A stretch of 64,000 nucleotides of DNA from Thalassococcus arenae (lineage in GTDB: Bacteria > Pseudomonadota > Alphaproteobacteria > Rhodobacterales > Rhodobacteraceae), in the NCBI RefSeq assembly GCF_019104745.1, contig NZ_JAHRWL010000001.1, positions 1 to 64,000 on the forward strand, given 5' to 3'. This document shows positions 20,929-49,041 of this stretch, piece by piece (within the stretch, counting starts at the first letter, position 1; each line of letters begins with the position of its first letter). Below the pieces are notes generated by a model that was not told the origin of the DNA, made no database searches, and saw only the letters and a program-made list of their open reading frames with translations. A program made the translations under genes and the position numbers.

Positions 20929-22320
20929 TCAAAAGCTGCGTTGTGCCGCGTTCTCCAATCCCGGCGGCACGGTCGCATCGATCCAGCACCGGGCTGGAGC
21001 GTGGCCGGTCGCCTCGACCCAGGCTTCGGTCTGGGACGGGTCCATGCGAAGGGGCGCCAGATCTTCGATCATGCCGACGGCGCGGGCCAGCGTGCAGCGT
21101 GTGGTCAGCGCCCAGAGCACGTCTTCGTCGCAGGTCAGGTCCACATCCTCGTCGACATAGATCACGGTCTTGGTGAACGGCATCACGGCCATGAGATGCC
21201 GCGTCAACGCCCCGAGATCGCAACGCGCGGTGGCGCCGGGGGCAAGAGCCGCGTACAGCAACAGCATTCCGCCACCGGCCGGGGCATAGCGCAGATCGCG
21301 CAAGGGCGTATCCGGTGGCAGGGCCAGGGCCTGCGCCAATGCCCCGCCCAATCCCAGGATCGCCGATTGTTCGCGCCCGGGCCCAAGCGTCGCCTGCAGA
21401 ACGGCGCCGGGACGTTGGGTGATGGCGGTGACCTCGACCACCTGCAAAACGGCGCCGGCATGGCCATCGTAGCCCAGGAATTCCGGCATGGTGACGCCGG
21501 CCGGACGGTCGCCGATCGTTTCGTCGCAGGTCTGCGCGCTCAGCCGCCCGTGCAGAACGAATTCGCTGTCGGGCAGACAGGCTGCACCGGCCAATCCCGG
21601 CGCAACCGCCACTGCCTGCCCCGCAAGCGCGCCGGCCAGCGTCAGCTTGTCGAAGCGTTGCGGCAGATGCGCCGTCGCAGTGGCCGAGGCAACGGCGACG
21701 GCCGGGGAAACACCGATATTGATGCTGATGGGCAGATCCCGCCCTTCGGCCCAGGCGGCTTGTCCGAGGGCACGCAGCGCCCGGCTGGCCAGCATCGATA
21801 TGCCCAGCCGCGTGTCGTCCAGCACCAGCATCCGGTGCGCCGACAGCGCCAGGTCAGCGCCGCCCTGCCCGGCGATGACGAAGCCCATGGTCACGTAGGG
21901 GCCGGCATCGCGCGGGGTGATCTTGGGAAACGGCAGGCGCGACAAGGCGACCCGTTTCCACTTTTCTTGGTCCAGCGGTGCCGGGCGCGGCGCGATCGGC
22001 TGCAGCTTTGCGACCGCCGACGGCCATCCGCCGGCTTCGAGGCCGGGCAGCCAGCCGCGCAGGCGCCGTTCGCAACCGTAAAGACCGAGCAGCAGATCGG
22101 GACCCTCTGGCTGGCGATACAGAACCGCCGGTTCCGACGCGCTGCGCGGCCTTGCAGGCACGGCCGCGTGGGCAAGGGCAAAGTCGCGGCAGGCCGCATC
22201 AGGAGACAGGCCCCGCTTGACCAACAGACGGCCCGGATGTTCCGGACCGTCTTGCAGCGTGGCGAAAGCCGTGCGCATGTCGCGCACGGCCTCTTTGATC
22301 GGGTTCTCAGGCCGTGGCAT
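20929..22320 (-). CDS. UbiD-family prenyl-FMN-dependent decarboxylase
   Basis: 463 aa. It matches the UbiD family through YVTMGFVIA, SINIGVSPAVAVASA, a LPDSEFVLHG segment, EFLGYDGHAG and DEDVDLTCDEDVLWAL. UbiD enzymes bind prenylated FMN made by UbiX and reversibly decarboxylate unsaturated or (hetero)aromatic acids; HudA-type members act on pyrrole-2-carboxylate. The position that usually reads Glu in the EG of this motif is His here (VLHG), which may alter chemistry (hand alignment). It is the last gene of the LolA-like/RND/UbiD unit, overlapping the RND stop by 14 bases. A UbiX gene lies at the other end of the island. Likely role: decarboxylation of a pathway acid. Confidence 0.83.
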   Translation of the reverse strand: MPRPENPIKEAVRDMRTAFATLQDGPEHPGRLLVKRGLSPDAACRDFALAHAAVPARPRSASEPAVLYRQPEGPDLLLGLYGCERRLRGWLPGLEAGGWPSAVAKLQPIAPRPAPLDQEKWKRVALSRLPFPKITPRDAGPYVTMGFVIAGQGGADLALSAHRMLVLDDTRLGISMLASRALRALGQAAWAEGRDLPISINIGVSPAVAVASATATAHLPQRFDKLTLAGALAGQAVAVAPGLAGAACLPDSEFVLHGRLSAQTCDETIGDRPAGVTMPEFLGYDGHAGAVLQVVEVTAITQRPGAVLQATLGPGREQSAILGLGGALAQALALPPDTPLRDLRYAPAGGGMLLLYAALAPGATARCDLGALTRHLMAVMPFTKTVIYVDEDVDLTCDEDVLWALTTRCTLARAVGMIEDLAPLRMDPSQTEAWVEATGHAPARCWIDATVPPGLENAAQRSF

Positions 22321-24754
22321 CGGCCAGAACCGGCTCGAACCTCGTCGGACGGGCAGCCGCCGCCTTGCGGATACGATCGTAGACGATCAGCACCGCCGGA
22401 CCGATGAAGACCTCGGACAGCAGCGCCAGGGCCGCACCCGCCGCCATCAGCAACCCGAAGCTCTGGATGTTCGACATCGACGACAGTGTGAAAACCGCGA
22501 AGCCCGCCATCACGACGATGGTCGTGGTGAAGATCGCGCGGCCGATCTCGGACATCGCACCGCCGATCGCATCCTCCATCCGGGCACCGGCAGCCAGCCG
22601 GTCACGAACGTTGTGGAAGAAATGCAGCGTGTCGTCGACGATCAGGCCGGTGATGATGCCACCGATCAGCACGGTGAAGGTGTCCAGCGGGATACCGAGA
22701 TAGCCCATGACCCCCAGCAGCACCGCGAAGGGCGCAACATTGGGCACCATGCTGACCAGGCCCAGACCGACCGAACGCAGCGCGACGGCCATCATCGCCG
22801 TCACCAGCACCAACGCCAGTGCATAGGACACCGTCATGCTGTCCAGAACCTTTTTCGACGTCTTGGCCAGCAGCGCGATCAGGCCGGTGCTTTCGACCGA
22901 AGCGGTGTCACCAAGCGCAGCTTCGAACCGGCTTTCGATGGTTTCGATGACATTGGTGTAGAGCTTGGCTTCCAGCCAGGGCGTCTGGAACGACACCCGG
23001 CCCGAGGAATAGTCCATCGACACGTAACGCTTCATGTCGTCGATGCCCTGCCCCTCAAGCAGCAAGAGCTGGTCCCAGATCTGTTCCTGGCCGGGAATGC
23101 GCAGTTCCGCCGGATCGCCGTCGTTGATGGCCTGGTTGGTCTCTTCGATGAACGAGATGATCGAGGTGTGCCGACCGATCGGGATAGCCACCGCATCGTA
23201 GGATTCGCGGGCCGTGGCCTCGACCGTCTTGAGCAACGTCTCGTCACGGAAATCCCGGCCTTCGGTCGGCGTGATCACCATTTCCAGGTTCACCGTGCCC
23301 ATGAAATTCGCATCGATGAATTCGGTCGACTGGCGCGCCTGGTTGTCGCCGGGCAGCCACAGCAGCGAGTTGTGCGAATAGCTGAGGTTCGTGATGCCCA
23401 GTGCGGCCGTCAGAACGACGGCGCCGCAAACGGCAAGCGTGCGTTCCGGCCGCGTGGCGGCCAGCATCGCGCCACGCTTGAGAACCCGGGCGATAAGGCC
23501 CGGCGCGTCGGTTTGCTTGTTCAGATAGCGTTCCGGCAGCGTGCGGAAGACCAGCGTCGCCCAGATCATGGCCAACAGATACGACAGCCCGACCGACACG
23601 GTGCCGAACAGGCCCAGGGCAGTAATCGGCGCCAGCGGTGCGGCGGCCAGGCCGATCAGACCGCCTGCGGTCGTCAACGCGGTGAACAGGATCGGGGTGT
23701 TCGCCTTCCTGACGGCGATCGCCAGGGCCGTCCGCCCGTCAGGTTCCGATGCCCGTGCCTTGAGCAGCGTCGCGACGAAGTGGATATAGGTGCACAACCC
23801 AACCACCAGCGTCATCGGGATCAAGAGCTGCGTCGGCGGGGTCATCGCCGTGCCGGTCGCTGCCAGCGTCGCCAGCGTCGAGAAGATCGCCGTGGCAAAG
23901 GACAGGAAGGCACCGATCGCCACCAGGAAAGACCGGTGCAGGACCAGCATCGCCAGAACCGTGATGATCACGCAGGCCAGCGTGAAGCGCGGCATGTCGG
24001 TTTCCATCATCCGGACGATTTCCGTAGACAGAACCGGCGAGCCGGCGATGTGGATGCGGAAACCCTCGGTTTCATAGCGTGCCGCGATCTCACGCGCGAC
24101 GGCGGTCATCTCGGCGTAGTGCGGTGCGCCAAGCAGGGCGCGCTCGGACAGCGGCGTGAATTGCACCGCGCAGGTCAGGCCTTGCGACGGGTCGGGGACG
24201 CAATCGGCATTGCCCGGAGCATAGCGATACGGCTCGATCACCACGGCCGCGGTGCTGCCATCGGCCGAAACGATGAAATTCCGGTAGAGCGGCGTGGCGA
24301 GAATGCGGTCGCGCAGTTCCTGCGGGTCGCGGCCGCGCGCCAGCATGTTGCGCACTAGCTCCTCGAGATAGACGCCACCGTCCTCATGCTCGATGAACGG
24401 GATGTTGTAAGGCGAAAAGATCTCGGACACGTAAGGCACGGTGTCCGCCAGTTCGCGGTGCATCCTGGAGAAGGTGGTCAGGAACTCGGTCGAAAAGACG
24501 TTGTCGGATTGCACCGCCACGACGAGGCGGTTGTCCTGACCGAATTCCCGGCGCATCGCATAATAGGTTTCGAGAGCCGGATCGCTTTCATGCATGAAAG
24601 CTTCGACGCGGCCATCCTTTTGCAAGGTCGGAAGTTGGGTCGCCACAAGGCCGAAAACGGCAGCAAGCAGCACGATCACGGATTTGATACGGTGGGTGTA
24701 CACCGTCTGAAGTAGACGCGTCGTCAGGCTTTCGACACGGGAAAGCGGGTTCAT
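22307..24754 (-). CDS. MMPL/RND-superfamily exporter
   Basis: 815 aa inner-membrane transporter built from two halves. Each has one N-terminal helix, a large periplasmic loop (about residues 45-255 and 440-625) and a block of five helices. Helix motifs VGLCTYIHF and GLIVDDTLHFFH in equivalent positions are typical of the proton-relay helices of the predicted RND exporter subfamily; the Asp pair is present only in the second half. Such exporters are commonly paired with LolA-like periplasmic proteins, including in aryl-polyene clusters, where they are thought to move lipidic products to the outer membrane. The LolA-like gene lies 77 bases upstream and the UbiD gene overlaps its end. Confidence 0.87.
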   Translation of the reverse strand: MNPLSRVESLTTRLLQTVYTHRIKSVIVLLAAVFGLVATQLPTLQKDGRVEAFMHESDPALETYYAMRREFGQDNRLVVAVQSDNVFSTEFLTTFSRMHRELADTVPYVSEIFSPYNIPFIEHEDGGVYLEELVRNMLARGRDPQELRDRILATPLYRNFIVSADGSTAAVVIEPYRYAPGNADCVPDPSQGLTCAVQFTPLSERALLGAPHYAEMTAVAREIAARYETEGFRIHIAGSPVLSTEIVRMMETDMPRFTLACVIITVLAMLVLHRSFLVAIGAFLSFATAIFSTLATLAATGTAMTPPTQLLIPMTLVVGLCTYIHFVATLLKARASEPDGRTALAIAVRKANTPILFTALTTAGGLIGLAAAPLAPITALGLFGTVSVGLSYLLAMIWATLVFRTLPERYLNKQTDAPGLIARVLKRGAMLAATRPERTLAVCGAVVLTAALGITNLSYSHNSLLWLPGDNQARQSTEFIDANFMGTVNLEMVITPTEGRDFRDETLLKTVEATARESYDAVAIPIGRHTSIISFIEETNQAINDGDPAELRIPGQEQIWDQLLLLEGQGIDDMKRYVSMDYSSGRVSFQTPWLEAKLYTNVIETIESRFEAALGDTASVESTGLIALLAKTSKKVLDSMTVSYALALVLVTAMMAVALRSVGLGLVSMVPNVAPFAVLLGVMGYLGIPLDTFTVLIGGIITGLIVDDTLHFFHNVRDRLAAGARMEDAIGGAMSEIGRAIFTTTIVVMAGFAVFTLSSMSNIQSFGLLMAAGAALALLSEVFIGPAVLIVYDRIRKAAAARPTRFEPVLADATA

Positions 24755-24831: not shown

Positions 24832-25728
24832 TCAGTTGATGATGTTTTCGCTGCGGAAGTCCTTGAAATCGCTGTCGGGGTTCGACAGGTCATCCAGCTC
24901 GAACCAACGGCTCGGAAGGCCGATATTGAACGCCTCGCCTTCGGTCTCGAAATCCGAGAAGGACACGACGCGGCCTTCCTTGATCGTCGACACGCGATAA
25001 CGGGCCGGGGCGAAGACGCCGTCGACCCAACGCAGGTCCAGGGTTTCCAGCACGCGCTGTTCGTTCGGCGCGTCGGCGTTGAAGCTGGAGTAGATCGGCA
25101 TGAAGGTTTCGGTATCGGCCCACAATTCGCCGTCGCGCAGCCCGAGGCGGATCACTTCGTCTTCGGTGCGCGGGTTGACGTAGATCTTGTACACCGGGTA
25201 GCCGCGGAATTCGCCCACGCCCAGCATTTCGCAATCGTAGTCGTCGGCCTGGCGGATCAGCATCTCGCCCACGGCCAGGTCCGAGCCGTAGAGACGCTGG
25301 CTGAGGTCCTCGGATTTGACGTCGATGATCTTGTCGGCCGAAGGCAGATAGACCCAGACCTTGTCCGGCAGACCCTTTTCAAAGCTGTCGCGGACCGAAG
25401 ATTCGACGCCGGCCAGTTCCTCGGGATCGAACACATAGGACCGAAGCCGGCGGTTGATGCCGTCGTTCTTGTGGGCCGCGGCGATACGGCGGGTTTTCAC
25501 GGCGCCGGTTTCATCGGTGATCTTCATGTGCACGATGCGCCAGCTGTCGTAGCCGTTGTAGCGGTTCTGCACGCCTTCCATGACGGCACGGCAATCGGTG
25601 ATGACCGGCGAGGTCGGCGTCGCCGGGTCCAGCAGCGGCTTGCCGCCTTCGGCCTGGGCCATTCCGGCCAGCAGGGCAACCGAGGCGGTGGCGAATGCGA
25701 AAAGCGATTTGCGATTCTTGGGAAACAT
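24832..25728 (-). CDS. LolA-like outer-membrane lipoprotein-sorting protein (copy 1)
   Basis: 298 aa with a clear Sec signal peptide (residues 1-26, cleavage after AGMAQA). The mature part resembles the outer-membrane lipoprotein-sorting family: DSWRIVHMKITDETGAVKTR, KVWVYLPSADKI, and a C-terminal RWFELDDL segment. The half-barrel fold binds hydrophobic cargo in the periplasm. These proteins are typically encoded with RND/MMPL exporters. It is the first gene of the LolA-RND-UbiD unit. The SD GGAGAA sits at the base of a long hairpin. It probably accepts a hydrophobic product from the exporter rather than lipoproteins. Confidence 0.83.
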   Translation of the reverse strand: MFPKNRKSLFAFATASVALLAGMAQAEGGKPLLDPATPTSPVITDCRAVMEGVQNRYNGYDSWRIVHMKITDETGAVKTRRIAAAHKNDGINRRLRSYVFDPEELAGVESSVRDSFEKGLPDKVWVYLPSADKIIDVKSEDLSQRLYGSDLAVGEMLIRQADDYDCEMLGVGEFRGYPVYKIYVNPRTEDEVIRLGLRDGELWADTETFMPIYSSFNADAPNEQRVLETLDLRWVDGVFAPARYRVSTIKEGRVVSFSDFETEGEAFNIGLPSRWFELDDLSNPDSDFKDFRSENIIN

Positions 25729-26107
25729 GTTCGATATTCTCCGTTCAGATTGGCGGTGGAACTGTGGTTTTTCATTCCAACGCCAATGTGATCTGAACCG
25801 CGCTCAAATAAAAACGGCGTTTGGTTCCGTATTCTGGACATTTCACACAGTGTATTCGCCTTTGTGGCGGAGAATGGCCCAGAGTGACCACCGACCCTTG
25901 TGATGCACAGGGTGTCGAGGCGATAATCTTATTAATTACAGATGCTTGGTCAGCTCACCTTACGCAACGTCACGTAATATTCCGTGACATGGCAGAGTGT
26001 GATGGTGGGAAAAAATCCCCGAAATTTTGAACACAACGTTACCTGGCAAATCAGTAGCATCAATGACGGAAAATACGCTCCAAATTGAGTATTCAGGAGA
26101 GATCAAT
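25729..26107. promoter_or_regulatory. Divergent, AT-rich control region of the island
   Basis: This 379-base gap holds the promoters for the LolA-RND-UbiD unit (-) and the TrpF/TrpA/AfsA-like unit (+). Features seen: a long interrupted stem GTTCAGA-TTGGCG (25743-25755) with CGCCAA (25781-25786) and TCTGAAC (25792-25798) just before the LolA SD; ACACAGTGT, a short palindrome near 25846; and GTCACG-N8-CGTGAC (25969-25988), an operator-like palindrome. The SD AGGAGA for the TrpF-like gene lies at 26095-26100. No open reading frame in it looks real. Confidence 0.6.
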
Positions 26108-26773
26108 ATGGATTTGAAGATCTGCGGGATCACAAATCGGACCGAACTGGATATCCTGGAAGAGGAAGGCGCGCGCTATGCCGGACTTTGGACCGGGATC
26201 GACGGCCACCCCCGAAACCTGAACGACGCGCGCTTCATGGAGCTTGCCGAAAGCTGCCAGACGGTGATGCCCGTAGCGGTCTGCGTGAAACGGCCCGTGC
26301 GGGATCTTTGGTCGCTTCTGCGCATGACCAATGTCCGCCACGTGCAACTGCACGGTTTCAACCCACCGGGCGACATCGCCTATCTGAAAGACAAGGGCAT
26401 GACCCTGATCAAGACGCTGCATGTCGACGATCACGGTGGCTGCCCGCTCGAACGGCTGATCGATTCCTACCGCGACGCCGGCAGCGACGTGTTCCTGATC
26501 GACCGGTTCGGCGGGCGCCAGGCCATCGGATCGAGCGGGGTCAGCCTGTGTTCGCAACAGGCCGACCGCTGGCGCGAACGGCTGAACGGGGCGCGGATCT
26601 GGCTGGCCGGCGGCCTGACCGCCACGCGCATCTGCGAACTTGCCGAAGACGAGCGGTTCGAAGCCGTCGATGTCGACTCCGCGGCCCGCCTCAAGGGCGG
26701 CGCCATCCACCGCAAGGCCGCGCGTCTGCTGGTCCTTGCTTCCTCTCCCTCCAACCTTTTCCAGGCTGCTTGA
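26108..26773 (+). CDS. TrpF-like phosphoribosyl isomerase paralogue
   Basis: 221 aa from ATG 26108 (SD AGGAGA). It has the TrpF fold markers KICGIT (catalytic Cys6), VQLHG at 79-83, FLIDRFGG (catalytic-type Asp132), and LAGGLTATRI. Two conserved TrpF segments are altered: the GxGxxFDW-type phosphate loop is absent and GVDVSSGVE reads AVDVDSAARLKGG. TrpF performs an Amadori rearrangement of N-(5-phosphoribosyl)anthranilate. No trpB, trpE or trpG is present, so this is a specialised paralogue that I infer acts on another phosphoribosylated amine. First gene of a five-gene unit with 1-4 base overlaps throughout. Confidence 0.82.
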   Translation: MDLKICGITNRTELDILEEEGARYAGLWTGIDGHPRNLNDARFMELAESCQTVMPVAVCVKRPVRDLWSLLRMTNVRHVQLHGFNPPGDIAYLKDKGMTLIKTLHVDDHGGCPLERLIDSYRDAGSDVFLIDRFGGRQAIGSSGVSLCSQQADRWRERLNGARIWLAGGLTATRICELAEDERFEAVDVDSAARLKGGAIHRKAARLLVLASSPSNLFQAA

Positions 26774-27585
26774 TGAACCAGATATCCGAATGCATCGCCG
26801 CCGGACCGGTCCTGTCGCCGGGCCGCATCCTTCCACCGACGCTGTGCCCGCTGATCATGGCCGGCGATCCTTCGCTCGATGCCACCCGTGCCTTGCTGCG
26901 CGAATGCGTCCGTCTTGGGGTCGGCATGGTCGAACTGTGCCTGCCCTTCAGGAACGCGTTCACCGATGGACCCGCCTTGATCCGCGCCCATGAGCGGGCC
27001 TTGCGCGACGAAGCGGGGCCGGCGGCGGTGATCCGCATGGCAGCCGAATTCACGGCGGACATCCGCATCATCCTGCTGGCCGACAGCAGCCACACCTTGC
27101 GCCCCTTCGGGTTTGAAAGGCTGTTCACGATGGCGGCCGAGGCGGGCTTTGCCGGTGTGCTTCCCCACGGGCTGCCCCCGGTTCTGTCCCAGCGATTCCA
27201 TTCCGCCGCGCAACTGGCAGGTCTGCCGGTCGTCGGCACGATCTACGCCAACGCGATGCCCGAGACCCGCCAGCAGGTCATCGCGCGGGCGTCGGCCTTC
27301 ATCTACCTGGTGTCGACCTGGGGCCGGTCCGGCGGCGCCGTCGACCCAAGCGACCTGTCTTGCCAGATCGACGCGCTGCGCGCCCACAGTGCCTTGCCGG
27401 TGGCGCTTGGCTTCGGGTTGAAGACGCCCAGTGACGTCGGCCGCGCCTTCCGGGCCGGTTGCGACATCGCGATCGTCGGAAGCGCGGTGTCCGGCGTGAT
27501 CGAGAACGCCCTGGAAACGGGGCAGGATCCGGTGGAACGCGCCGCTCTTTTCATCGCCGACCTGCAAGAGGAGACCCGGCCATGA
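26773..27585 (+). CDS. TrpA-like indole-3-glycerol-phosphate lyase paralogue
   Basis: 270 aa; start overlaps the TrpF-like stop (TGATG). It keeps both catalytic acids of the tryptophan synthase alpha fold: Glu54 in MVELCLPF and Asp65 in TDGP. Other family segments are recognisable but changed: AFIYLVSTWGRSGG and GFGLKTPSDV, with phosphate binding at IVGSAVSG. No TrpB partner is encoded. Stand-alone TrpA homologues can work as lyases that release the heterocycle and glyceraldehyde 3-phosphate (BX1 and IGL in plants). I infer such a lyase role on an indole-like intermediate. Confidence 0.82.
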   Translation: MNQISECIAAGPVLSPGRILPPTLCPLIMAGDPSLDATRALLRECVRLGVGMVELCLPFRNAFTDGPALIRAHERALRDEAGPAAVIRMAAEFTADIRIILLADSSHTLRPFGFERLFTMAAEAGFAGVLPHGLPPVLSQRFHSAAQLAGLPVVGTIYANAMPETRQQVIARASAFIYLVSTWGRSGGAVDPSDLSCQIDALRAHSALPVALGFGLKTPSDVGRAFRAGCDIAIVGSAVSGVIENALETGQDPVERAALFIADLQEETRP

Positions 27586-28442
27586 GCGCGCTGGACCGCC
27601 GTCTGGATACCCGCAACACGGTTCTGACCTATTCCCCGGACGACCGTCCGGGCGCCGCCCGGCTGATCGTCGACAGGGACCATCCGTTCTTTTTCGATCA
27701 TCCCCTCGATCATGTTCCCGGGCTGCTCCTGCTGGAAGGCGCCGTGCAAGCTGCGCAGGATTGCGCGCAAGAGCCGTGTTTCGTCAGCGCGATCCGGGCC
27801 GATCTCATCCGCTACGCCTTTTTCGACGACCCGATCCTGCTGGACACCCGAAGCGAAGACCGCAATGGCCGCCGGCAATGCACCGTCATCCTGACCCAGA
27901 AAGGCAAGCTGTGCGCGCGGATCGAGGTCGAACTGACCCGGCAGGTCTGTCCGGTCCGCGCGCGGCCCATCTGGGATGCCGACCCGGCCCGTGCCCTGCC
28001 GCCCTGTCCCGGTGAACCGCTCAACAAACTGCGGCCCGAAAACGTGCTGATCACCACGCCGGCGTTGGACGACCGACAGGTCGAAGCGCGCCTTCTGCCG
28101 ATGTCCGGCACCTGCCTGTTCGCCGACACGACACAGACCGTGCACCCGCTCTACCTGCTCGAGGCCTTCATGCAGGTTCAGCGCTATCTCAACGCCACAC
28201 AAGATGGCGACCGGCGCATGCGCGACATTCTCACAGGCGTCTCCATCGAGCAGACCGTTCCGCTATCCGACCTGTCAGAGGGCGTTTTCCTGCGCGGCGC
28301 GCGCGCTTTTCTACCCACCGGACCGGGGCGGATGTCGCGGAGCGCGTGGATCTACGCGGCACAGCGCCCGGTCGCCAAATGCACAATCCAGACCGCCCGC
28401 GTGACTGCCCGGTCGAAACCATCCGAAGGAGAGAAAAGCTGA
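27582..28442 (+). CDS. AfsA-type double hotdog protein
   Basis: 286 aa; ATGA overlap with the TrpA-like gene. The first half has FFFDHPLDHVPG at 37-47 followed by LLLLEGAVQAA (Glu52), the signature of the AfsA/ScbA/BarX hotdog repeat. The second half retains a weaker copy, TVHPLYLLEAFMQVQ. In Streptomyces, AfsA condenses a beta-ketoacyl thioester with dihydroxyacetone phosphate to start gamma-butyrolactone synthesis (established). Here it may join a beta-ketoacyl chain from the local ketosynthase to a phosphotriose or another hydroxyl, or act as a dehydratase-like hotdog. AfsA proteins are unusual in this lineage. No AfsA-type receptor gene is nearby. Confidence 0.8.
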   Translation: MSALDRRLDTRNTVLTYSPDDRPGAARLIVDRDHPFFFDHPLDHVPGLLLLEGAVQAAQDCAQEPCFVSAIRADLIRYAFFDDPILLDTRSEDRNGRRQCTVILTQKGKLCARIEVELTRQVCPVRARPIWDADPARALPPCPGEPLNKLRPENVLITTPALDDRQVEARLLPMSGTCLFADTTQTVHPLYLLEAFMQVQRYLNATQDGDRRMRDILTGVSIEQTVPLSDLSEGVFLRGARAFLPTGPGRMSRSAWIYAAQRPVAKCTIQTARVTARSKPSEGEKS

Positions 28443-30897: not shown

Positions 30898-30920
30898 CCG
30901 GACAGTTTCGGACAAACATC

Positions 30921-30951
30921 GAAGGGCCCGGCAAATCCTGCCGGGCCCTTC
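30921..30951. terminator. Bidirectional terminator hairpin
   Basis: GAAGGGCCCGGCA (30921-30933) and TGCCGGGCCCTTC (30939-30951) form a perfect 13-bp stem with a 5-base loop between the convergent MFS gene and the degenerate receiver gene. It likely ends both large transcripts. Confidence 0.8.
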
Positions 30952-30967
30952 GGTGTTCCCGGAACGT

Positions 30968-33137: not shown

Positions 33138-33169
33138 GGTCTTCACTCCTTTGATGATCGGGCCTGCCG

Positions 33170-41080: not shown

Positions 41081-41784
41081 TTCGCCTGCTCTGTCTTGAT
41101 GCAATAGCCCTGTCCACGCAGGGTCTTGATGAAGTCGAACTTCAGCCCCTGTTCGCGGAACTTCTGTCGTATCCGGTAGATGATCGTATCGACCATGGCC
41201 GGATCGCTTTGCGTATGGTGGCCGATGCGTTCGAGGATCTCGACCCTGCTCATGATGGCGCCTTCTGCTTCCTTCAGGCATTGCAGGATGCGCAATTCCA
41301 GTTCGGTCAGGTTGACCGCGTAGGGGCCGTAGACCGCCGACATGTGTCCGGGGGACAGGTGCAATTCGGTTGCGGATTGGGATTCGGCCTGGGCCGGAGA
41401 GGTATTGCCGGCATCGCGCTTGCGCCGGACCACCGCGCCGATCCGCGCCACGAGTTCGCGCATTTCCACGGGTTTGGCGACGAAGTCATCGATTCCGCTT
41501 TCCAGCGCGACGATGCGATCGGTCAGCTCGGCCCGCGCGGTCAGGGCGACGATGGGGATTTCGGCGAACGATTTGCCGCTTGACCGGATCGACCGGCAGA
41601 CGGACATCCCGTCCAGTTCGGGCAACATCATGTCCAATAGCATGACATCGAAACCTTCGGCGCCCAGCATGTCGAAAGCCTGCGATGGCGTGAACGCCAG
41701 TGTCAGCTCCATCCCGTATTTCGCAAGAACCGGCTGCATCAAGGCGCCCAGTTCTTCGTCGTCGTCCAGCATCAACACGCGCAC
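41077..41784 (-). CDS. OmpR-family response regulator
   Basis: 235 aa from a GTG start with GAGGA seven bases upstream. Receiver domain residues are intact (Asp7-Asp8-Asp9, phospho-acceptor Asp51 in VMLLDMMLP, and Lys in FVAKPVEMRE). A C-terminal winged helix follows (MVDTIIYRIRQKFREQGLKFDFIKTLRGQGYCI). It is paired with the overlapping kinase and probably controls this island. A second OmpR-type regulator at 47455-48228 is similar in layout. Confidence 0.88.
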   Translation of the reverse strand: MRVLMLDDDEELGALMQPVLAKYGMELTLAFTPSQAFDMLGAEGFDVMLLDMMLPELDGMSVCRSIRSSGKSFAEIPIVALTARAELTDRIVALESGIDDFVAKPVEMRELVARIGAVVRRKRDAGNTSPAQAESQSATELHLSPGHMSAVYGPYAVNLTELELRILQCLKEAEGAIMSRVEILERIGHHTQSDPAMVDTIIYRIRQKFREQGLKFDFIKTLRGQGYCIKTEQAK

Positions 41785-41835: not shown

Positions 41836-43359
41836 TCAGAACGTGTAGGTAAAGCCCATCTGGACCGAGCTCTTGTTCGGATTGGCCCCGTAGATCGAGG
41901 TATCATCTCCGAACGTGCTTATCGCGCGCAGGTTGAAATTGCCATTCTGACCGACCGGAATGTCCAGCGACAATTGCGCCAGCCCGCTGTGATCCGCCGG
42001 CACGTAGAAGGCCAGCAGGGACAGGTCGGCATCTTGCACGGCGTCGTTCCAGGCGATGCGGGTAAAGACCTGTTCGCGCGCCAGCGGATCCTGCCTGCGG
42101 TTGGCGACGCCATAGATGGCCGAGGCCGCCAGTCCGTCCAGACCGGTTGCGCCGGACAACGCAGCGATCTGTCCATTGCTCAGGCCGGCTTCGTTCAGGT
42201 GGTATTCCAGCGTGATCGAAATGTCCTCGGCGCCGACCAGGCGCTCCGGCAAGGCCCAGTTCAATCCGAGCGCGGCTTGCAGGTACCATTCCTTGCCTTG
42301 ACCGGCGCCGACGCCGTCGCGGAACGCGGCAGAACCCAGGGTGTCGCCCAGGGCCTCGTCGACCAGCGACAGCCGTTTCTGGGCCATGGCCTCGCCATAG
42401 AGAACCAGATTGTCGCCGAGTGTTCCGCTGAGTTCGAAGCCCAGGCCGGGATCGTCATCGATCAGAACCGCGTTGGCGGTAAAGGAAAGGTTGTCGTTGA
42501 TGCGTGGTGTCATCTTCAGGAACCACGCTTCGGACGGATTGGTGCGGTCCAGTCCCATGCCGAACACATCGGCGTCGGTCCAGACGGTATCGGGGTCGGC
42601 ATCGATCTCGGGGCGATAGCCCAGTTGCACGAGGGTCTGACCGATCGTCGTCGTCGCGGTCAGCGCAAGCACGCCCAGCCGTTCGTTGCGCCGGTCCGCC
42701 GGAGCGGCGCTGCCGGTCAGCACCAGGCTGTCGTCGCGGAACCAGTCGGTCGGGTTGAAGCCGGTGGCGACTCCGTTGCGGATATTGATGCGCCCGAACT
42801 GCAGGCTGGTGCCGGGGGTCACCGCGTAGGACAGGTACAGTTCCTGAATATCGATGGCGAAGTCGTCGCCAAAGTCATAGTCCCGTCCCTCGGCGATCTC
42901 GGTTCGCGCCCGCAAGTTGAAGTTCAGGCTGGTTTTTTCTCCGATGGCCCAATTGCCGAAATAGTGGGCCTGAAAGCGCAGGGCGGTATCGGTGTCGCCG
43001 TCCAGATCGGTATTGGCGAAGACGCGGCTTTCCAGTTCCAGCGTGGCCGACAACCCGTTTCCGGCGATGCCGGCCGGTTGGACCTGCGCGACGCTCGGCG
43101 CTTCGGCGAGAACGGGAACCGCCGTATCGGGCGGCAGTTCCAAATCCGCATCGCCCTCGGACAGCACGGGGCCGGTATCGGCAGCAGCGGACGGGTCTTC
43201 CGACGCACCCGGCGCCAAGGCGACATCGTCTTGGGGGAGGACGGTTTCGCCTGGCAGTCCCGGAAGATCGGGCGGCAGGTCGAAATCCTGCGCCATGGCC
43301 GGAACGGCGAGTTGAAAGGCGAGTGTCGCGGCGACCGAATGCGTCAGAAGGCGTTTCAT
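41836..43359 (-). CDS. Outer-membrane beta-barrel protein
   Basis: 507 aa with a Sec signal peptide (residues 1-23, AVPAMA|QD). A Pro/Asp/Ala-rich linker (about 24-95) is followed by a long barrel-like region of alternating amphipathic strands (for example LSATLELESRV, LRFQAHYFGNW, LSFTANAVLI) that ends in QMGFTYTF, the terminal Phe expected for BAM recognition. It is not a TonB receptor and I do not recognise a named porin family. Located after the LolA-like gene and ABC genes, it probably forms the outer-membrane component of the export system or the site where cargo is delivered. Confidence 0.8.
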   Translation of the reverse strand: MKRLLTHSVAATLAFQLAVPAMAQDFDLPPDLPGLPGETVLPQDDVALAPGASEDPSAAADTGPVLSEGDADLELPPDTAVPVLAEAPSVAQVQPAGIAGNGLSATLELESRVFANTDLDGDTDTALRFQAHYFGNWAIGEKTSLNFNLRARTEIAEGRDYDFGDDFAIDIQELYLSYAVTPGTSLQFGRINIRNGVATGFNPTDWFRDDSLVLTGSAAPADRRNERLGVLALTATTTIGQTLVQLGYRPEIDADPDTVWTDADVFGMGLDRTNPSEAWFLKMTPRINDNLSFTANAVLIDDDPGLGFELSGTLGDNLVLYGEAMAQKRLSLVDEALGDTLGSAAFRDGVGAGQGKEWYLQAALGLNWALPERLVGAEDISITLEYHLNEAGLSNGQIAALSGATGLDGLAASAIYGVANRRQDPLAREQVFTRIAWNDAVQDADLSLLAFYVPADHSGLAQLSLDIPVGQNGNFNLRAISTFGDDTSIYGANPNKSSVQMGFTYTF

Positions 43360-43408: not shown

Positions 43409-44200
43409 TCAGGCCTTGAAGTTCGGCAGCCATTCCTTGCTGAACCAAGCCTCGGGGATGTTCTTGGCGCGGTAGTTGGACATGCGCATCAGCGTCACCT
43501 TGTTGGGGTCGAACCCGTCGGCGATGACGATCTCGGTCGGACGGCTTGCACCCATCTGGTTGCGCAGGTTGCGATACCAGGCGACTTTGATCAGCTTGCC
43601 CGAGTCGGTGTAGTACTTGCCCTTCACCGGCTGACTGTTCGAGGCATCGACCCAGAACTCGACCGCGCTGTAGGGCGCCGAACTGGAGGCCTGGGTCAGG
43701 CGCAGCTTGTGGCAGTTGCGGTTCTTCTTGTCGCCGTCGGCGATGGTTTCGGTGCCTTCCATGCTGGCCTTGTAGTCGCCGACGAGGTTCGAACTGACGA
43801 CATCGCCGTTCGACGCGTTGCCCAGCAAACGCTGGCGCGGCGAGATCCGTACGGACGCCTTGGAAGACGGGTCGTAAAGCCACAGGATGTTGCCGTTGCG
43901 CAGCAGGATCTTGCCCCGGTCCGCGGCCGGCGCGTTGATATGCACCAGCGTCTGGAACTGGTTTCCGGTGGCGCGGGAATAGGTGGTGACGCTGGTCTGT
44001 TCCTTAACGCGCCCGCGTTCATAGTTGATCAGGTCGACGTCAACGGCGAACGAGGTTTGCGGGTTGCGGATCGCATCGGCCTTCTTCAGCACCGAACCGG
44101 CGCTTTCGGCGGCCGCGCTCGGGAGACCGAAAGAGGCCAGCCCGGCTGCGGTCATCCCGCCGAGAAGAAGCCGGGCGAATTCGCGACGATCGAGTTCCAT
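43409..44200 (-). CDS. LolA-like outer-membrane lipoprotein-sorting protein (copy 2)
   Basis: 263 aa. The N-terminus DRREFARLLLGG followed by a hydrophobic stretch and PSAAA looks like a twin-arginine signal peptide. The mature domain resembles the LolA-like sorting family (TSFAVDVDLINYERG, GKILLRNGNILWLYDPSS, NCHKLRLTQASSSAPYSAVE, KYYTDSGKLIKVAWYR). It is distinct from copy 1, which has a Sec signal. It lies between the ABC permease and the outer-membrane barrel, mirroring the Lol arrangement of inner-membrane ABC transporter, periplasmic carrier and outer-membrane acceptor. Confidence 0.83.
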   Translation of the reverse strand: MELDRREFARLLLGGMTAAGLASFGLPSAAAESAGSVLKKADAIRNPQTSFAVDVDLINYERGRVKEQTSVTTYSRATGNQFQTLVHINAPAADRGKILLRNGNILWLYDPSSKASVRISPRQRLLGNASNGDVVSSNLVGDYKASMEGTETIADGDKKNRNCHKLRLTQASSSAPYSAVEFWVDASNSQPVKGKYYTDSGKLIKVAWYRNLRNQMGASRPTEIVIADGFDPNKVTLMRMSNYRAKNIPEAWFSKEWLPNFKA

Positions 44201-44300: not shown

Positions 44301-45683
44301 TCAGGCCCGTTGCAGGCTTTCGACGATGTTCAGGCGCGCGGCCTTGAACGTGGGCAGCACCGCGGCCAGCAGCGCGAGGGCGATCAGGGCGCCAACCACG
44401 CTGGCGGCGAAGACCGGGTTGTCCAGCACCATCAGTTGCACCGTGAGCGGTGTGGCGTTGGACGGCGGGGTCCATTGCAGACCAGCCGCGTTCACCAGGT
44501 TGGCCACAGCCAGCGCACCGCCCAGGGCAATCGCCGCACCGATCACGCCGATCAGCGTGCTTTCGGTCAGGAACAGCGTCTGGACAAAACCCTTGCGGAA
44601 ACCAAGCGCCCGGATCGTGCCGATTTCCTTCACCCGCTCGACGATGGTCATCGAGATCGTGTTGACGATGGTAAAGGCGATGACGATCGACAGCACGAAG
44701 GCGATGACCACGAACATGAAGCTGAACATCCCGAAGATGCGCTCGAAGGTCGGGTCGACTTCGGTGAAGTGGTAGACACTCAGGTCCAGCCCGGCACCGG
44801 TCAGGATCTCGGCGACGCGCGCCTTGACTGCGTCGACCTTGGCCGGATCAGCGACTTGCAGCATCAGCGTCGTGGCTTGCTGGCTGTCGCCGTAAAGCAG
44901 ACTGCGGGCCTGTTCGAAGTGCATCATGACAAAGCTGTTGTCGACGGCGCGCACCGCCTGCGCCTGTGCGGCTTCGATGCTGACCCGGGCGATGTTCGGC
45001 ACACCGGCAGAGGTTGCGGCCATGACGTTGAGCTGCGGCTTTTCGCTTCCCGCGCTCTGGTCGGACAGCCCGCCTTCCCCCGCGACGAGCGAAGTGAAGT
45101 CCTGTTCCTCGACGACGAGGTCCTCGGCCGCAACCGGCGCGTCCTGGCAATCCGGCACGGACAGGGCGGCACACATGCCCATCATCCGGGCCATGCCGAG
45201 ACCGACGATCACGCTGTCAGAGCCACCGGCGGCAAGGCCCGTCGCCGGCGCGACCTGGCCGATTTTCCAGCCATCCCAGCCGCGCATTTGGTCCACTTGC
45301 GCGGGCACGATGCCGGTGCCGATGAAGGTCTTGGAATTGCCGGTTTCGTTGTTGCCTGCCACGCCGGCCAGATCGATCCGGGGTGTGATCACCGCAAGGT
45401 TTTCGGCCAGCATCGGATCAGCAGCCAGAAGGGCCGCGACCTGATCCCAGTTCTCGATCGTATAGGCATCGGGATTGGCGGCGCCGAATTCCAGATAGCC
45501 GTTGCGGTAGACCTGCAGGTTCCCCTGCTCCTGGATCATCGAGGTCTGCACCCCGTACCAGATCGAAGTGACGAAGCCGCCGAACAACAGAGCGGCAAGC
45601 CCGCCGACACCGATGGCCAGCGCCGTCGTCGTCGAACGCCGGGCGTTCTTGAAGATGTTGCGCAACGCGATTTTCCAGATCAT
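44301..45683 (-). CDS. ABC transporter permease, MacB/LolC-like (FtsX domain)
   Basis: 460 aa. One N-terminal membrane segment (about 20-42), a large periplasmic MacB-like domain (about 45-310), then three C-terminal helices that form the FtsX domain (KEIGTIRALGFRKGFVQTLFLTE is the typical cytoplasmic loop). This family uses mechanotransmission rather than classic substrate translocation. With the downstream LolA-like protein it probably extracts a hydrophobic molecule from the inner membrane. It starts 5 bases after the ATPase stop. Confidence 0.87.
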   Translation of the reverse strand: MIWKIALRNIFKNARRSTTTALAIGVGGLAALLFGGFVTSIWYGVQTSMIQEQGNLQVYRNGYLEFGAANPDAYTIENWDQVAALLAADPMLAENLAVITPRIDLAGVAGNNETGNSKTFIGTGIVPAQVDQMRGWDGWKIGQVAPATGLAAGGSDSVIVGLGMARMMGMCAALSVPDCQDAPVAAEDLVVEEQDFTSLVAGEGGLSDQSAGSEKPQLNVMAATSAGVPNIARVSIEAAQAQAVRAVDNSFVMMHFEQARSLLYGDSQQATTLMLQVADPAKVDAVKARVAEILTGAGLDLSVYHFTEVDPTFERIFGMFSFMFVVIAFVLSIVIAFTIVNTISMTIVERVKEIGTIRALGFRKGFVQTLFLTESTLIGVIGAAIALGGALAVANLVNAAGLQWTPPSNATPLTVQLMVLDNPVFAASVVGALIALALLAAVLPTFKAARLNIVESLQRA

Positions 45684-45688: not shown

Positions 45689-46435
45689 TTACTCCTCTGC
45701 GGTCTGGCCGTCGATGATGTGAATGACCGCGCTGGCCGGCGTGATCAGGTCGGTGTCGTGGGTGCAGATCACCACCGATGTGTTCAGTTCGGTCCGCACG
45801 CGATCCATGAGCGCGACGATCTCGCGCGAAGTCCGGCTGTCCAGGTTCGCGGTGGGTTCATCGGCGATGACGAGGCTCGGTTCGCTGACAAGAGCCCGGG
45901 CGATGGCGACGCGCTGCCGCTGGCCGCCCGAGATTTCTCCGGGACGACGATTGACCAGGTCGGCCAGGCCGACCGCATCCAGGTAATCCATCGCGCGGGC
46001 CTTGCGGGCCGCGCCGCTCATCTTGCGGTTCAGCAGCGGGAATTCGACGTTCTCGCGCAGGCTGAGCACCGGGATCAGGTTGAAGCTCTGGAACACGAAC
46101 CCGATATGGCGGGCCCGGAAATCCGCAGCGGCGCGGTCGGACAACCCGGTAACGTCTTCGCCCAGAACGGTCAGTTCACCACCCGTCGGTCGGTCGAGCA
46201 GGCCCAGCAGGTTCAACAGCGTCGACTTCCCGCTGCCCGACGGTCCGGTGATGAAGGTCGTTCCGGCACGATCGATCCGCCCCGAGACACCACGCAACGC
46301 GGGAACGTCCACCCGGTCCATGCGGTAGGTCTTGGACAGCTTGCGGAAGCGCACCGCCGGTTCGGCAGCCGCGCTACCGGCCAGCGCCTGTGTTTGGTCG
46401 TATTGAAACGACTTTGGGTCAGATACTGTGTTCAC
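45689..46435 (-). CDS. ABC transporter ATP-binding protein, MacB/LolD-like
   Basis: 248 aa from a GTG start (GAGGA eight bases upstream). Walker A GPSGSGKST, Q-loop, signature ISGGQRQRVAIARAL and Walker B LVIADEPTANLD are all present, as are the LolD/MacB-type LNLLGLLDRPTGG and the D-loop. First gene of a seven-gene minus-strand operon (ABC ATPase, permease, LolA-like, barrel, regulator, kinase, transglutaminase) that ends at the terminator near 39015. Confidence 0.9.
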   Translation of the reverse strand: MNTVSDPKSFQYDQTQALAGSAAAEPAVRFRKLSKTYRMDRVDVPALRGVSGRIDRAGTTFITGPSGSGKSTLLNLLGLLDRPTGGELTVLGEDVTGLSDRAAADFRARHIGFVFQSFNLIPVLSLRENVEFPLLNRKMSGAARKARAMDYLDAVGLADLVNRRPGEISGGQRQRVAIARALVSEPSLVIADEPTANLDSRTSREIVALMDRVRTELNTSVVICTHDTDLITPASAVIHIIDGQTAEE

Positions 46436-46689: not shown

Positions 46690-47205
46690 TCAGAGGGTTG
46701 TGGCGGGTTCGCGTGCGACCGAGTGCATCGCCGCGCCGGCCAAGGCCAGCCCGACCAGCGCCATGATCGCGCGAACGCTGTTCCAGAAGGTCCAGTCCGC
46801 GCTGTAGGCCGTCCAGGCGCTGGTGGCCTCTTCGATCGACAGGCGCGCCGGGTCAAGCGCTTCGATCGCGTGGTTCATGGGTACGCTGATATTGACTGTA
46901 GGCAGGAAGGACCCGCCGAAGTAAACCGCCGTGGCTGCCAACAGCAACAACGCCGCCGCTTGCCTCCCCTTGAAATACAAAATCGCCGCGCATCCGAAAG
47001 CGATGATCGGTGTGAACAGGAACGTGAACAGGAAAACCAGGTTGCGTGTGCCGCGGTTGAGTTCCTGCATGGCGCGAATTGCATCGATTTCCGGCAGGTT
47101 GTTCAATCCCTGCATGACGGATACCGAATAGGCATAAAAGAACCCACCGATTGCGCCGAATAGCACGAGGGGTGTCAGGACGAGAAAAAAGCTCAGGCGT
47201 TGCAT
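46690..47205 (-). CDS. DUF1772 membrane protein (anthrone-oxygenase-like family)
   Basis: 171 aa from ATG 47205 (SD AAGGGA; an upstream TTG is less likely). Four membrane segments. Family features are visible: GGFFYAYSVSVMQGLNNL near the N-terminus, AIRAMQELNR, NISVPMNHAIEAL and WTFWNSVRAIMALVGLAL. DUF1772 includes fungal anthrone oxygenases, but most bacterial members are uncharacterised. It is monocistronic, between its own terminator and an upstream region with repeated motifs. It could be a membrane oxygenase acting on an aromatic intermediate; this is only a family-level suggestion. Confidence 0.78.
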   Translation of the reverse strand: MQRLSFFLVLTPLVLFGAIGGFFYAYSVSVMQGLNNLPEIDAIRAMQELNRGTRNLVFLFTFLFTPIIAFGCAAILYFKGRQAAALLLLAATAVYFGGSFLPTVNISVPMNHAIEALDPARLSIEEATSAWTAYSADWTFWNSVRAIMALVGLALAGAAMHSVAREPATTL

Positions 47206-47454: not shown

Positions 47455-48228
47455 CTATGCGCCGTTCAGCTGGTTCACCTGTCCAACCAGCGAATAGCCC
47501 CGTCCACGGACAGTGCGAATAAAGTCGACCGTAGCTCCGGCTTCCTTGATCTTGGTGCGCAGCCGATAGATCAGCGCGTCGATGCTGCGGGTATAGATCA
47601 CGGTCGTGCCGTGAACCTCGCCCAGCAGGTCATCGCGATTGAGGATCTCGCCCGGCCGTTTCGCCAGCGCCGCCACCAGCTCGAATTCCATCGACGTGGT
47701 GATAAGCTTGTTTCCGTTGACCAGGATCTGGGCGCGTTGGGTTTCGATCTGCAGGGTGTCGCCGTCCAGGGTGATCTCGCAACTCAGCCCGGACTTCCCG
47801 CCAGAGGCGACGGGCTCGGCAGTCGCGTTCTGTGCGGTGTTTTCGGATTGCGGGGTTTTCGTCCGGCGCAGAATCGCGTTGATCCGGGCCACCAGTTCGC
47901 GCGGTTCGAAAGGCTTCTTGACGTAGTCGTCGGCACCGGTCTCGAGACCCACCACCATATCGGTCAGTTCGGTCCGGGCCGTCAGGATGATGATCGACAC
48001 ATCCTTGTAGGGTGCGTTGGAATACCGGATCTTGCTGCACATCTGCAGGCCGTTGACTTCGGGCAACATGACGTCGAGCAGCACCAAGTCATAGGTCTTG
48101 GCCTCGAGAGCAGCGAACCCTTCGCTTGGGCTGTGCACGGCATCCAGTTCGATGCTGTAGTTTTTCAGGATGTCGTGCATCAGCTCGGCAAGCTCGACAT
48201 CGTCATCAATCAAAAGCACGCTTATCAT
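47455..48228 (-). CDS. OmpR-family response regulator (orphan)
   Basis: 257 aa. Receiver with Asp8-Asp9-Asp10, phospho-acceptor Asp52 in LVLLDVMLP and Lys in YVKKPFEPRE. A polar linker (about 125-150) leads to a winged helix with SIDALIYRLRTKIKEAGATVDFIRTVRGRGYSL. No kinase gene is adjacent, so it may receive phosphate from the kinase at 39773-41080 or from elsewhere. Its receiver and output domains are close in layout to the other regulator, suggesting duplication. It is divergent from ubiX. Confidence 0.87.
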   Translation of the reverse strand: MISVLLIDDDVELAELMHDILKNYSIELDAVHSPSEGFAALEAKTYDLVLLDVMLPEVNGLQMCSKIRYSNAPYKDVSIIILTARTELTDMVVGLETGADDYVKKPFEPRELVARINAILRRTKTPQSENTAQNATAEPVASGGKSGLSCEITLDGDTLQIETQRAQILVNGNKLITTSMEFELVAALAKRPGEILNRDDLLGEVHGTTVIYTRSIDALIYRLRTKIKEAGATVDFIRTVRGRGYSLVGQVNQLNGA

Positions 48229-48420
48229 GACAGTCTAATCACTTTTTCCATAAAAAAACATATGCCTGCGCGGCACCCAAGCAGTAACCTGACCGTTGAC
48301 GAACCATACTCTTGGCGGTCCTTGTCATGCACAAGCTTCCCTAGGGTCAACTTACCCGGCGCTCTCCTTAAAGGAAACCCCCGGCGCTGTCCACAATCAT
48401 TAAGGGATCGATATCACAAC

Positions 48421-49041
48421 ATGTCCCCTCTGCGCCCCCCTCGCGTCGCTGTACCGCAGCATGGCCGCTGCAGAATAACCGTCGGGTTGTCCGGCGCATC
48501 CGGTATGCCCTATGCGCTGCGACTGCTCGAAGTGCTTCAGGGTCTGTCGGTGGAAACGCACCTGATCGTGACGAAAGCGGCGGTTCAGACCCTCGCCGTG
48601 GAAACCGAAAACGGCTACGAGATGGCCCGTTCGCTTGCCGATCACGTCCATTCCAATTCCGATATCGGCGCTTCGATCGCGTCAGGTTCCTATCCCGTGC
48701 AGGGCATGATCATCGCCCCTTGCAGCGTCAAGACGCTGGCCGAGATCGCCAACGGCATCGGCAGCAGCCTGCTCAGCCGCGCTGCTGACGTTACGCTCAA
48801 GGAAAGACGCCCGCTGGTTCTGGGAGTGCGCGAAACACCCCTTCATCTGGGGCACTTGCGCAACATGACCGCGGTGACCGAGATGGGCGCGGTCGTGGCG
48901 CCTCCGATGCCGGCCTTCTACACGCGCGGACAAACGCTGGACGATCTCGTCAACCACCAGGTCCAGCGCTGGCTGGATGCCCTCGGCATCCACACGGCAC
49001 TGGCGCCCCGTTGGGCCGAACCGGCGCATACGCTGTGCTGA
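48421..49041 (+). CDS. ubiX: UbiX-type flavin prenyltransferase
   Basis: 206 aa from ATG 48421; the frame is open far upstream but similarity begins about 18 residues in, at ITVGLSGASGMPYALRLLE. Other UbiX motifs: THLIVTKAA, MIIAPCSVKTLAEIANGIGSSLLSRAADVTLKERRPLVLGVRETPLH in scattered blocks. It attaches a dimethylallyl unit to FMN to make prenyl-FMN, the cofactor of UbiD decarboxylases. A UbiD-family gene lies at the opposite edge of the island (20929-22320), so this UbiX may serve that enzyme, or may be the housekeeping copy for ubiquinone synthesis. Confidence 0.88.
   Translation: MSPLRPPRVAVPQHGRCRITVGLSGASGMPYALRLLEVLQGLSVETHLIVTKAAVQTLAVETENGYEMARSLADHVHSNSDIGASIASGSYPVQGMIIAPCSVKTLAEIANGIGSSLLSRAADVTLKERRPLVLGVRETPLHLGHLRNMTAVTEMGAVVAPPMPAFYTRGQTLDDLVNHQVQRWLDALGIHTALAPRWAEPAHTLC

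Follow-up and report, generated by a model that had tools for sequence, protein, structure and literature searches.

The 64,000-nucleotide stretch of Thalassococcus arenae DNA analysed here (the window) forms the first part of a 2.25 Mb contig in a genome of 3.7 Mb and carries, between positions 20929 and 49041, an island of 27 genes, called by codon score and annotated with Pfam and NCBIfam profiles. The original prediction described this region as one biosynthetic-export-regulatory system of about 25 genes, and every family that it named is present: an EctC-like cupin, a discrete adenylation (A) enzyme, a peptidyl carrier protein (PCP), an acyl-CoA-dehydrogenase-type (ACAD) enzyme, TrpD-, TrpF-, TrpC- and TrpA-like enzymes, a ketosynthase (KS) with a Cys-less KS-like partner, an AfsA-type hotdog protein, a flavin oxidase, UbiD and UbiX, a DUF1772 protein, three export systems (MFS, MMPL with LolA, and ABC/FtsX with LolA) and two OmpR-type regulators, accompanied by a histidine kinase. 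A transglutaminase-like (TGase) protein, a possible outer-membrane protein and a receiver-like stub extend that list. We propose that the island is probably a horizontally mobile Gram-negative biosynthetic cluster, the core of which is homologous to the pathway for the pyrrolopyrrole (bicyclic amidine) of the antitumour antibiotic kosinostatin.

The genes form a leftward LolA-MMPL-UbiD unit, a rightward TrpF-TrpA-AfsA-flavin oxidase-MFS unit and a long leftward series running from response regulator 2 to the receiver stub; UbiX closes the island on the right (Table 1). Overlaps of 1–4 bases, as originally noted, occur at seven junctions (TrpF/TrpA, TrpA/AfsA, AfsA/oxidase, oxidase/MFS, TrpC/TrpD, KS/KS-like and histidine kinase/response regulator), and UbiD and MMPL overlap by 14 bases. 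The shared terminators of the original description come down to one hairpin between the convergent MFS and receiver-stub genes; it scores as a terminator on the - strand only, so that terminator sharing is possible at most.

Table 1. Genes and other features of the island, with positions in the window.
Feature	Position	Strand	Evidence and remarks
UbiD-family decarboxylase	20929..22320	-	PF01977 120.6 bits; present in 6/6 other Rhodobacterales carriers
MMPL/HAE3-family exporter	22307..24754	-	PF03176; TIGR00921 below its cut-off
LolA-like periplasmic carrier 1	24832..25728	-	PF17131
TrpF-like isomerase	26063..26773	+	PF00697 46.7 bits; family keeps Cys, Asp where readable
TrpA-like lyase	26773..27585	+	PF00290 123.7 bits; Glu49/Asp60 kept 60/60
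AfsA-type hotdog protein	27582..28442	+	PF03756 67.5 bits, cut-off 24
Flavin-containing amine oxidase/desaturase-like enzyme	28442..29749	+	PF01593
MFS transporter	29746..30897	+	PF07690
Inverted repeat between convergent units, terminator-like on - strand	30920..30952	.	15-pair stem; self-match
Receiver-like response-regulator stub	30968..31315	-	Weak NCBIfam regulator matches; 4/6 other carriers, 31–65% identity
TrpC-like enzyme, Ala at Glu210 position	31390..32097	-	PF00218 130.6 bits
TrpD-like phosphoribosyltransferase, KHGN motif replaced	32094..33146	-	PF00591 152.5 bits
PCP	33170..33427	-	PF00550
A enzyme, prolyl-like pocket D-L-L-H-L-A-I-D-T	33474..35009	-	Pfam, pocket alignment
ACAD-type prolyl-PCP-dehydrogenase relative	35026..36147	-	NF045652 370.7 bits, cut-off 650
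KS	36207..37427	-	PF00109/PF02801; AmcF model 216.5 bits, cut-off 325
Cys-less KS-like partner, 308 aa	37424..38350	-	PF00109 43.4 bits; AmcG model 25.8 bits, cut-off 80
EctC-like cupin, WGNG type	38402..38806	-	PF06339 163.4 bits; PRK13290 174.5 bits, cut-off 128
TGase-like enzyme	39079..39771	-	PF01841; 54% identical to one in S. spiroverticillatus cluster
Sensor histidine kinase	39773..41080	-	PF02518, HAMP
OmpR-type response regulator 1	41077..41784	-	PF00072, PF00486
Possible outer-membrane beta-barrel protein	41836..43359	-	Signal-peptide-like start and terminal aromatic residue, both read from sequence
LolA-like periplasmic carrier 2	43409..44200	-	PF17131 127.5 bits
FtsX-like permease	44301..45683	-	PF02687
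ABC transporter ATPase	45689..46435	-	PF00005
Anthrone_oxy/DUF1772 membrane protein	46690..47205	-	PF08592; ChrI model 94.1 bits, cut-off 275
OmpR-type response regulator 2	47455..48228	-	PF00072, PF00486
UbiX-family flavin prenyltransferase	48505..49041	+	PF02441; PRK06029 236 bits
tRNA-Ser at island boundary	49083..49172	-	tRNA call; kept in 3 relatives without island (stretches read)

All eight genes of the core (A, PCP, ACAD, EctC, TrpD, TrpF, TrpC and TrpA) are common to the kosinostatin producer Micromonospora okii TP-A0468, where they stand in one run in the order A-PCP-TrpD-TrpA-EctC-ACAD-TrpF-TrpC. Seven of the window proteins, measured against their kosinostatin (kst) counterparts, are 33–57% identical. 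The window TrpD scores 123 bits against the kst copy and 80 against the other copies in its own genome, and TrpC 124 and 97 bits, respectively; TrpA is only slightly nearer to kst (101 vs 97 bits), the values for the kst TrpA being 132 vs 77. Along with the eight clustered genes, the window displays the marks of a kosinostatin-type core: Ala at position 210 of TrpC, loss of KHGN in TrpD, the WGNG type of EctC and the A-domain signature YGCTETND. A pyrrole- or aminopyrrole-derived heterocycle, as originally predicted, is the likely class of chemistry. The island is, however, not wholly undescribed, and as to the core the claim of a new combination fails: the same genes lie together in a proven producer, and disruption of ksnC3, annotated as a phosphoribosylanthranilate isomerase gene, abolishes kosinostatin in S. 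albidoflavus (PMC13099267).

Further trpD, trpC and trpA copies in the T. arenae genome (C2:834251-836615 and C1:303461-304162; trpF was not searched) support the view that the Trp-like genes of the island are paralogues, and a reading of the island as the tryptophan operon, with the only copies in the genome, was dropped. Four Streptomyces plasmid loci also hold A, PCP, TrpD, TrpA, EctC, ACAD, TrpF and TrpC in one run. On the S. clavuligerus megaplasmid pCLA1, all eight core genes lie unannotated at 11423–17871 of the stretch read, and we know of no product for this locus; its PCP was left out of the core-family comparison. Two candidates picked up by their EctC matches were rejected as core loci: S. 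albogriseolus pSALBX2, which has only PCP, TrpD and EctC matches in 18 kb, and Gloeothece, which has EctC without any other core gene.

The signature YGCTETND occurs in all six of the first-compared loci that have an A gene and served as the key of a contig scan, which yielded at least 118 stretches, M. okii TP-A0468 among them; in 113 of the 118, the A enzyme reaches at least 200 bits. A Trp-like gene appears in at least 59 of these 113 stretches, mostly of 8 kb; another 37 have EctC or ACAD but no Trp-like gene, and 17 have neither, all three counts being lower bounds because of truncation. Three pairs of stretches (L025/L079, L031/L093 and L085/L124) come from one genome each. Twenty-five of the 118 loci, selected to cover diverse taxa, were extended, each around an EctC match.

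Residue numbers of the Trp-like and A enzymes follow the literature and were mapped by motifs; rows of 120 residues or fewer were omitted from the tally of Trp-like residues (81 of 85 EctC rows kept). TrpC-like proteins retain Glu51, Lys53, Lys110 and Glu159 in 35/35 sequences, and the position of Glu210 is Ala in all 34 that are readable there. In the TrpD-like proteins, the KHGN motif carries Thr or Ser for His107 and Ser or Ala for Asn109 (64/64), and the motifs for phosphoribosyl pyrophosphate (PRPP) are kept. Glu49 and Asp60 of TrpA are invariant, as are the Asp (37/37) and, where readable, the Cys (35/35) of TrpF. Kept catalytic residues together with altered substrate-side positions indicate, for the members read, that the chemistry is largely retained and the acceptor sites have changed.

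The island EctC is the sole match to the EctC model in its genome. In proteins of its WGNG type (numbering of PMC6344544; 83 of 85 rows tallied), Gly occupies the position of Trp21 in 82/83 and Thr, Ala or Cys that of residue 38 in 83/83, and the iron ligands are kept where readable; among the other EctC rows (n = 21), Trp21 is found in 14 and Asn or His at 38 in 15. Both positions contact the substrate in P. lautus EctC (PMC6344544), and EctC turns glutamine into the cyclic amidine 5-amino-3,4-dihydro-2H-pyrrole-2-carboxylate (ADPC) in a weak side reaction (PMC6344544, PMC5924519), which PMC4795551 words as using two glutamine molecules. The function of solitary EctC is called unresolved in PMC5924519. 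Two such solitary WGNG-type genes were seen in other settings, one directly before a type I polyketide synthase (PKS) gene (Rhizobium gallicum, 4001–4390 of its stretch) and one beside fatty acid desaturase, acetyltransferase and tryptophan halogenase genes (Gloeothece verrucosa, 17004–17381).

In the alignment of A-enzyme pockets, the window has D-L-L-H-L-A-I-D-T, M. okii D-L-L-Q-V-T-L-D-S and the L-proline ligase 6o6e D-L-L-Y-L-A-L-V-C. Asp235 is present in all 117 readable members of 120 A sequences (three being unreadable there), and by the pocket rule this residue is expected for an alpha-amino acid substrate, not for nicotinate. The ACAD enzyme is nearest to RedW/PigA-like prolyl-PCP dehydrogenases and stays below the cut-off of the RedW equivalog (Table 1). 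A-PCP-EctC-ACAD-TGase sets free of Trp-like genes, in the sense that the stretch read (usually 20 kb, but 9.3 kb for the gammaproteobacterial genome) gave no match, make up 10 of the 25 extended loci: Alteromonas, a gammaproteobacterial metagenome-assembled genome (MAG), Modicisalibacter, Chromohalobacter, Vibrio coralliilyticus, Grimontia and four actinomycetes. The set is followed by DsbA-like, two SMR exporter, deaminase and Amdase-family genes in Alteromonas, and by an Indigoidine_A-family gene in S. lincolnensis. In a tree of A, ACAD and EctC from 31 loci (one without ACAD; seven rows of odd composition), a single change separates Trp-bearing from Trp-free loci (99/97), and the proteobacterial Trp-bearing loci occupy one side of a branch (100/98). 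The pocket, the kinship with prolyl-PCP dehydrogenases, the ADPC activity of EctC, the Trp-free loci and the tree together suggest that EctC supplies an amidine of proline-like shape, which is then loaded and converted by oxidation to an aminopyrrole, the Trp-like set being an annulation unit that can be present or absent.

In the pathway that we propose, the WGNG-type EctC would close glutamine, free or carrier-bound, to a cyclic amidine of the ADPC type and the prolyl-like A enzyme would load it onto the PCP, presumably in that order, after which the ACAD-like enzyme would oxidise the ring to PCP-bound 5-aminopyrrole-2-carboxylate. The TrpD-like enzyme would put phosphoribose on the amine and the TrpF-like enzyme perform the Amadori step; the TrpC-like enzyme would then close the second ring and the TrpA-like enzyme remove glyceraldehyde 3-phosphate, giving a pyrrolo[2,3-b]pyrrole. 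KS and its Cys-less partner could add a C2 unit, the AfsA hotdog protein, flavin oxidase, DUF1772 protein and UbiD/UbiX could tailor the product, and the TGase-like enzyme could move or release the carrier-bound acyl group. Export across the envelope might proceed through MFS, MMPL/LolA and ABC/FtsX/LolA/barrel systems under two-component control. A pyrrolopyrrole-type core product is quite likely; for the origin of the first ring from glutamine through EctC the chances are about even, and the outline from chain extension to export stands in the same balance. More tentatively, at somewhat less than an even chance, EctC-A-PCP-ACAD, with or without TGase, may be a widespread, undescribed route from glutamine to a carrier-bound aminopyrrole, present in both Actinomycetota and Proteobacteria whether or not Trp genes accompany it; the Trp-like set would add the second pyrrole to give pyrrolo[2,3-b]pyrrole. 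If true, the kosinostatin amidine would not come from nicotinate as published, many solitary EctC genes would gain a function, and the Rhodobacterales island would be a Gram-negative, envelope-directed branch of the pyrrolopyrrole class, of which we know no earlier example.

Several observations weigh against the proposed pathway. The scheme has TrpC close a ring without an ortho-carboxylate to lose, and Ser56 of TrpC is not kept (Asp 19, Ser 11, Ala 3, Thr 2; n = 35). Position 38 of EctC varies outside the family too (His 13, Thr 4, Asn 2, Cys 1 and one gap among the 21 rows), and the acidic position 330 of the A enzyme lies within the scan motif, so that its invariance arises by construction. 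A TGase-like gene lies near the core in the S. spiroverticillatus, S. xanthii and N. alkaliphila loci, but no match was detected in the M. okii and A. bangkokensis stretches. To our knowledge, no product is known from any Proteobacterium with this block. The kosinostatin work of Ma et al. 2013 reportedly derives the pyrrolopyrrole from nicotinic acid and ribose and likens the process to tryptophan biosynthesis. This origin, with which a glutamine origin conflicts, is also given in PMC5321127 and PMC7918784, the latter describing the kst genes as converting a pyrrole and PRPP to the pyrrolopyrrole, and ADPC formation by ordinary EctC is called very inefficient and reversible in PMC5924519.

The same core could make the same bicyclic amidine with its first ring derived from nicotinic acid, EctC acting in a later ring-closing or rearranging step. 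We regard this alternative, which has the published origin of kosinostatin on its side, as serious but rather unlikely: even the kst A enzyme keeps Asp235 in a prolyl-like pocket, as expected by the pocket rule for an alpha-amino acid and not for nicotinate, the dehydrogenase is a relative of prolyl-PCP dehydrogenases, the A-PCP-EctC-ACAD set stands without Trp genes in the 10 loci described above, and no evident nicotinate-handling gene was found among the 27 genes with Pfam and NCBIfam. Two ordinary branches joined later, a proline-derived pyrrole of the Plt/Red type and a spare indole from the Trp paralogues, would explain the resemblance of the A/PCP/dehydrogenase set to PltF/RedW systems and the main catalytic residues kept in the Trp paralogues. 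Such a scheme is nevertheless improbable, as the anthranilate-side motif of TrpD and Glu210 of TrpC are replaced in every readable family member, neither an anthranilate source nor TrpB was found among the 27 genes (Pfam, NCBIfam), the A pocket is unlike that of 6o6e at positions 278, 330 and 331, and EctC is left without a role. Recognition of the kosinostatin core also displaced a reading in which an N-ribosylated pyrrole would cyclise to an indolizine.

The proposal of a mobile cluster with a kosinostatin-type core also draws on the distribution of the island. All 27 genes are present in Roseobacter, Primorskyibacter and Litoreibacter, 26 in Fertoeibacter and 25 in Gemmobacter; a protein search of plasmids returned eight Aliiroseovarius crassostreae records with EctC 86% and the TrpD-like protein 66–67% identical, and the one plasmid opened holds 26 of the 27. 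Recurrence of 25–27 genes in six other genomes, where the check originally set asked for co-occurrence of at least five families, speaks for more than a chance grouping, and the 27 genes almost certainly are one system. Beyond Rhodobacterales, Azospirillum griseum has 20/27 and Roseomonas genomospecies 6 19/27 (its stretch ending inside the cluster), both in a different order, a Rhodospira MAG contig 12/27 and a Methylobacter MAG 11/27. The AfsA-like gene was found in 2/100 genomes of the family and 2/390 of the order, the T. arenae genome being counted in both and the other match in the order being weak (29% identical). Genes annotated as RHS repeat, SpvB/TcaC-type and IS3 transposase come after the cluster on the A. 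crassostreae plasmid (24687–34390 of the stretch).

Housekeeping genes had originally been placed on both sides of the island. They were found on the right, where tRNA-Ser is followed by SPOR and PBP5-type genes (Pfam) and by two that we take, from size and position, to be tmk and holB, but not on the left, where the flanking gene, SBP56, is not a housekeeping gene. None of 17 window flank genes tested lies beside the island copy in the five non-plasmid Rhodobacterales carriers, within the stretches read. In three relatives, the stretches read contain the tRNA-Ser/SPOR/dacC/tmk/holB side and no island gene; two of these relatives lack SBP56, and the third has it on a different contig. Simple searches revealed no attachment repeats. 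Gene content stays together and genomic place varies. The order is rearranged between genomes and the UbiX-to-receiver-stub segment of Primorskyibacter is inverted relative to the window, as a chance neighbourhood of independent Trp-like, pyrrole, export and regulation modules might have it, but for Rhodobacterales such an origin is refuted by the six genomes, five of them without the window flank genes in the stretches read, and overall it is very improbable. An ectoine-type osmolyte locus with stray Trp paralogues is scarcely credible, although EctC passes the NCBIfam ectoine synthase cut-off: throughout the family, the residues that contact the substrate at positions 21 and 38 are not those of the P. 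lautus enzyme, and no EctA or EctB match lies among the 27 genes (Pfam; the rest of the genome was not searched). Elsewhere in the window, an MttB-family methyltransferase gene (9435–10973, - strand) with an Rfam PYLIS_3 match inside it adjoins two DAO/GCV_T oxidoreductase genes and a PEP-mutase-family gene, a neighbourhood that looks like a methylated-amine catabolic operon.

Around the core, the island has partners of its own. Judged by the active-site motifs, KS reads as intact and the 308-aa KS-like protein is without the cysteine. The AfsA-like protein exceeds the Pfam domain cut-off and falls short of the gamma-butyrolactone synthase (ScbA/BarX) model NF041195 (94.3 of 200 bits, model positions 180–289 of 290); the Streptomyces NBC_00209 locus gave no match to the AfsA query but has a MaoC-type hotdog gene in a similar place. 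Some Streptomyces and Actinoplanes loci likewise have a DUF1772-type gene close to the core. The predicted export set comprises MFS, MMPL together with one LolA-like carrier, and the ABC/FtsX proteins with the second LolA-like carrier and the possible outer-membrane protein, for which Pfam, NCBIfam and PHROG gave no match and a structure model (predicted local distance difference test, 32) was not used. From these predicted exporters, delivery to the envelope is plausible, and we expect a small pyrrolopyrrole derivative, probably lipophilic, that is placed in or sent through the outer membrane, where it may act as a signal, a pigment, a weapon against competitors or a metal ligand.

The island resembles several known systems and coincides with none. 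Its EctC shares the cupin family and, where readable, the iron ligands of ectoine synthase and solitary EctC, but has WGNG with Gly at Trp21 and neither Asn nor His at 38. With the PltF/RedW/PigA systems it shares a discrete A enzyme, a PCP and an ACAD-type oxidase, and six of nine pocket positions are equal or similar to those of 6o6e; unlike them, the family has H/Q, D and T/S for Y, V and C at the remaining three positions and EctC nearby in 25/25 extended loci, which were EctC-centred. The Trp-like set follows the four-reaction logic of the TrpD-TrpF-TrpC-TrpA branch, with altered acceptor sites. KS, its Cys-less partner and an AmcB-like carrier recall the KS-CYF (AmcF-AmcG) systems of cispentacin and coronafacate, of which the cispentacin pair adds one C2 unit and cyclises (PMC10698177); the curated cut-offs are not reached (Table 1; AmcB 35.2 of 80 bits), and, unlike cispentacin, the 27 genes include no evident 2-oxoglutaryl ligase or aminotransferase.

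The closest likeness is to kosinostatin/quinocycline (kst, ksn), with the same eight core genes, the same pocket class and the same substitutions. A complete cluster of that kind also encodes a type II aromatic PKS, its aromatase/cyclase and a branched octose pathway; no such set, and no aromatase/cyclase or octose gene, is among the 27 (Pfam; the rest of the genome was not searched). The island has instead KS with its Cys-less partner, AfsA, the flavin oxidase, UbiD/UbiX, envelope exporters and two-component control; since these partners are not the aromatic polyketide and octose genes of kosinostatin, its product should differ. Bicyclic amidine production has been reported for kst/ksn, not for this island, and among the papers listed we found none tying kosinostatin or pyrrolopyrrole genes to Rhodobacterales, which is not proof of absence. 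The core type is known; in the island it is combined with chain-extension, export and regulatory genes of its own, and the product is probably a new member of a rare fused-pyrrole class. A rare antibiotic-type heterocycle pathway, reported from Actinomycetota in the papers cited, occurs in Proteobacteria as a mobile block that brings its own envelope export and two-component control. Comparing the loci sets apart two modules, a reusable one for the aminopyrrole and a Trp-like one for annulation; it also offers an assayable hypothesis for solitary EctC of the WGNG type and predicts, for the bicyclic amidine, a precursor other than the published one.

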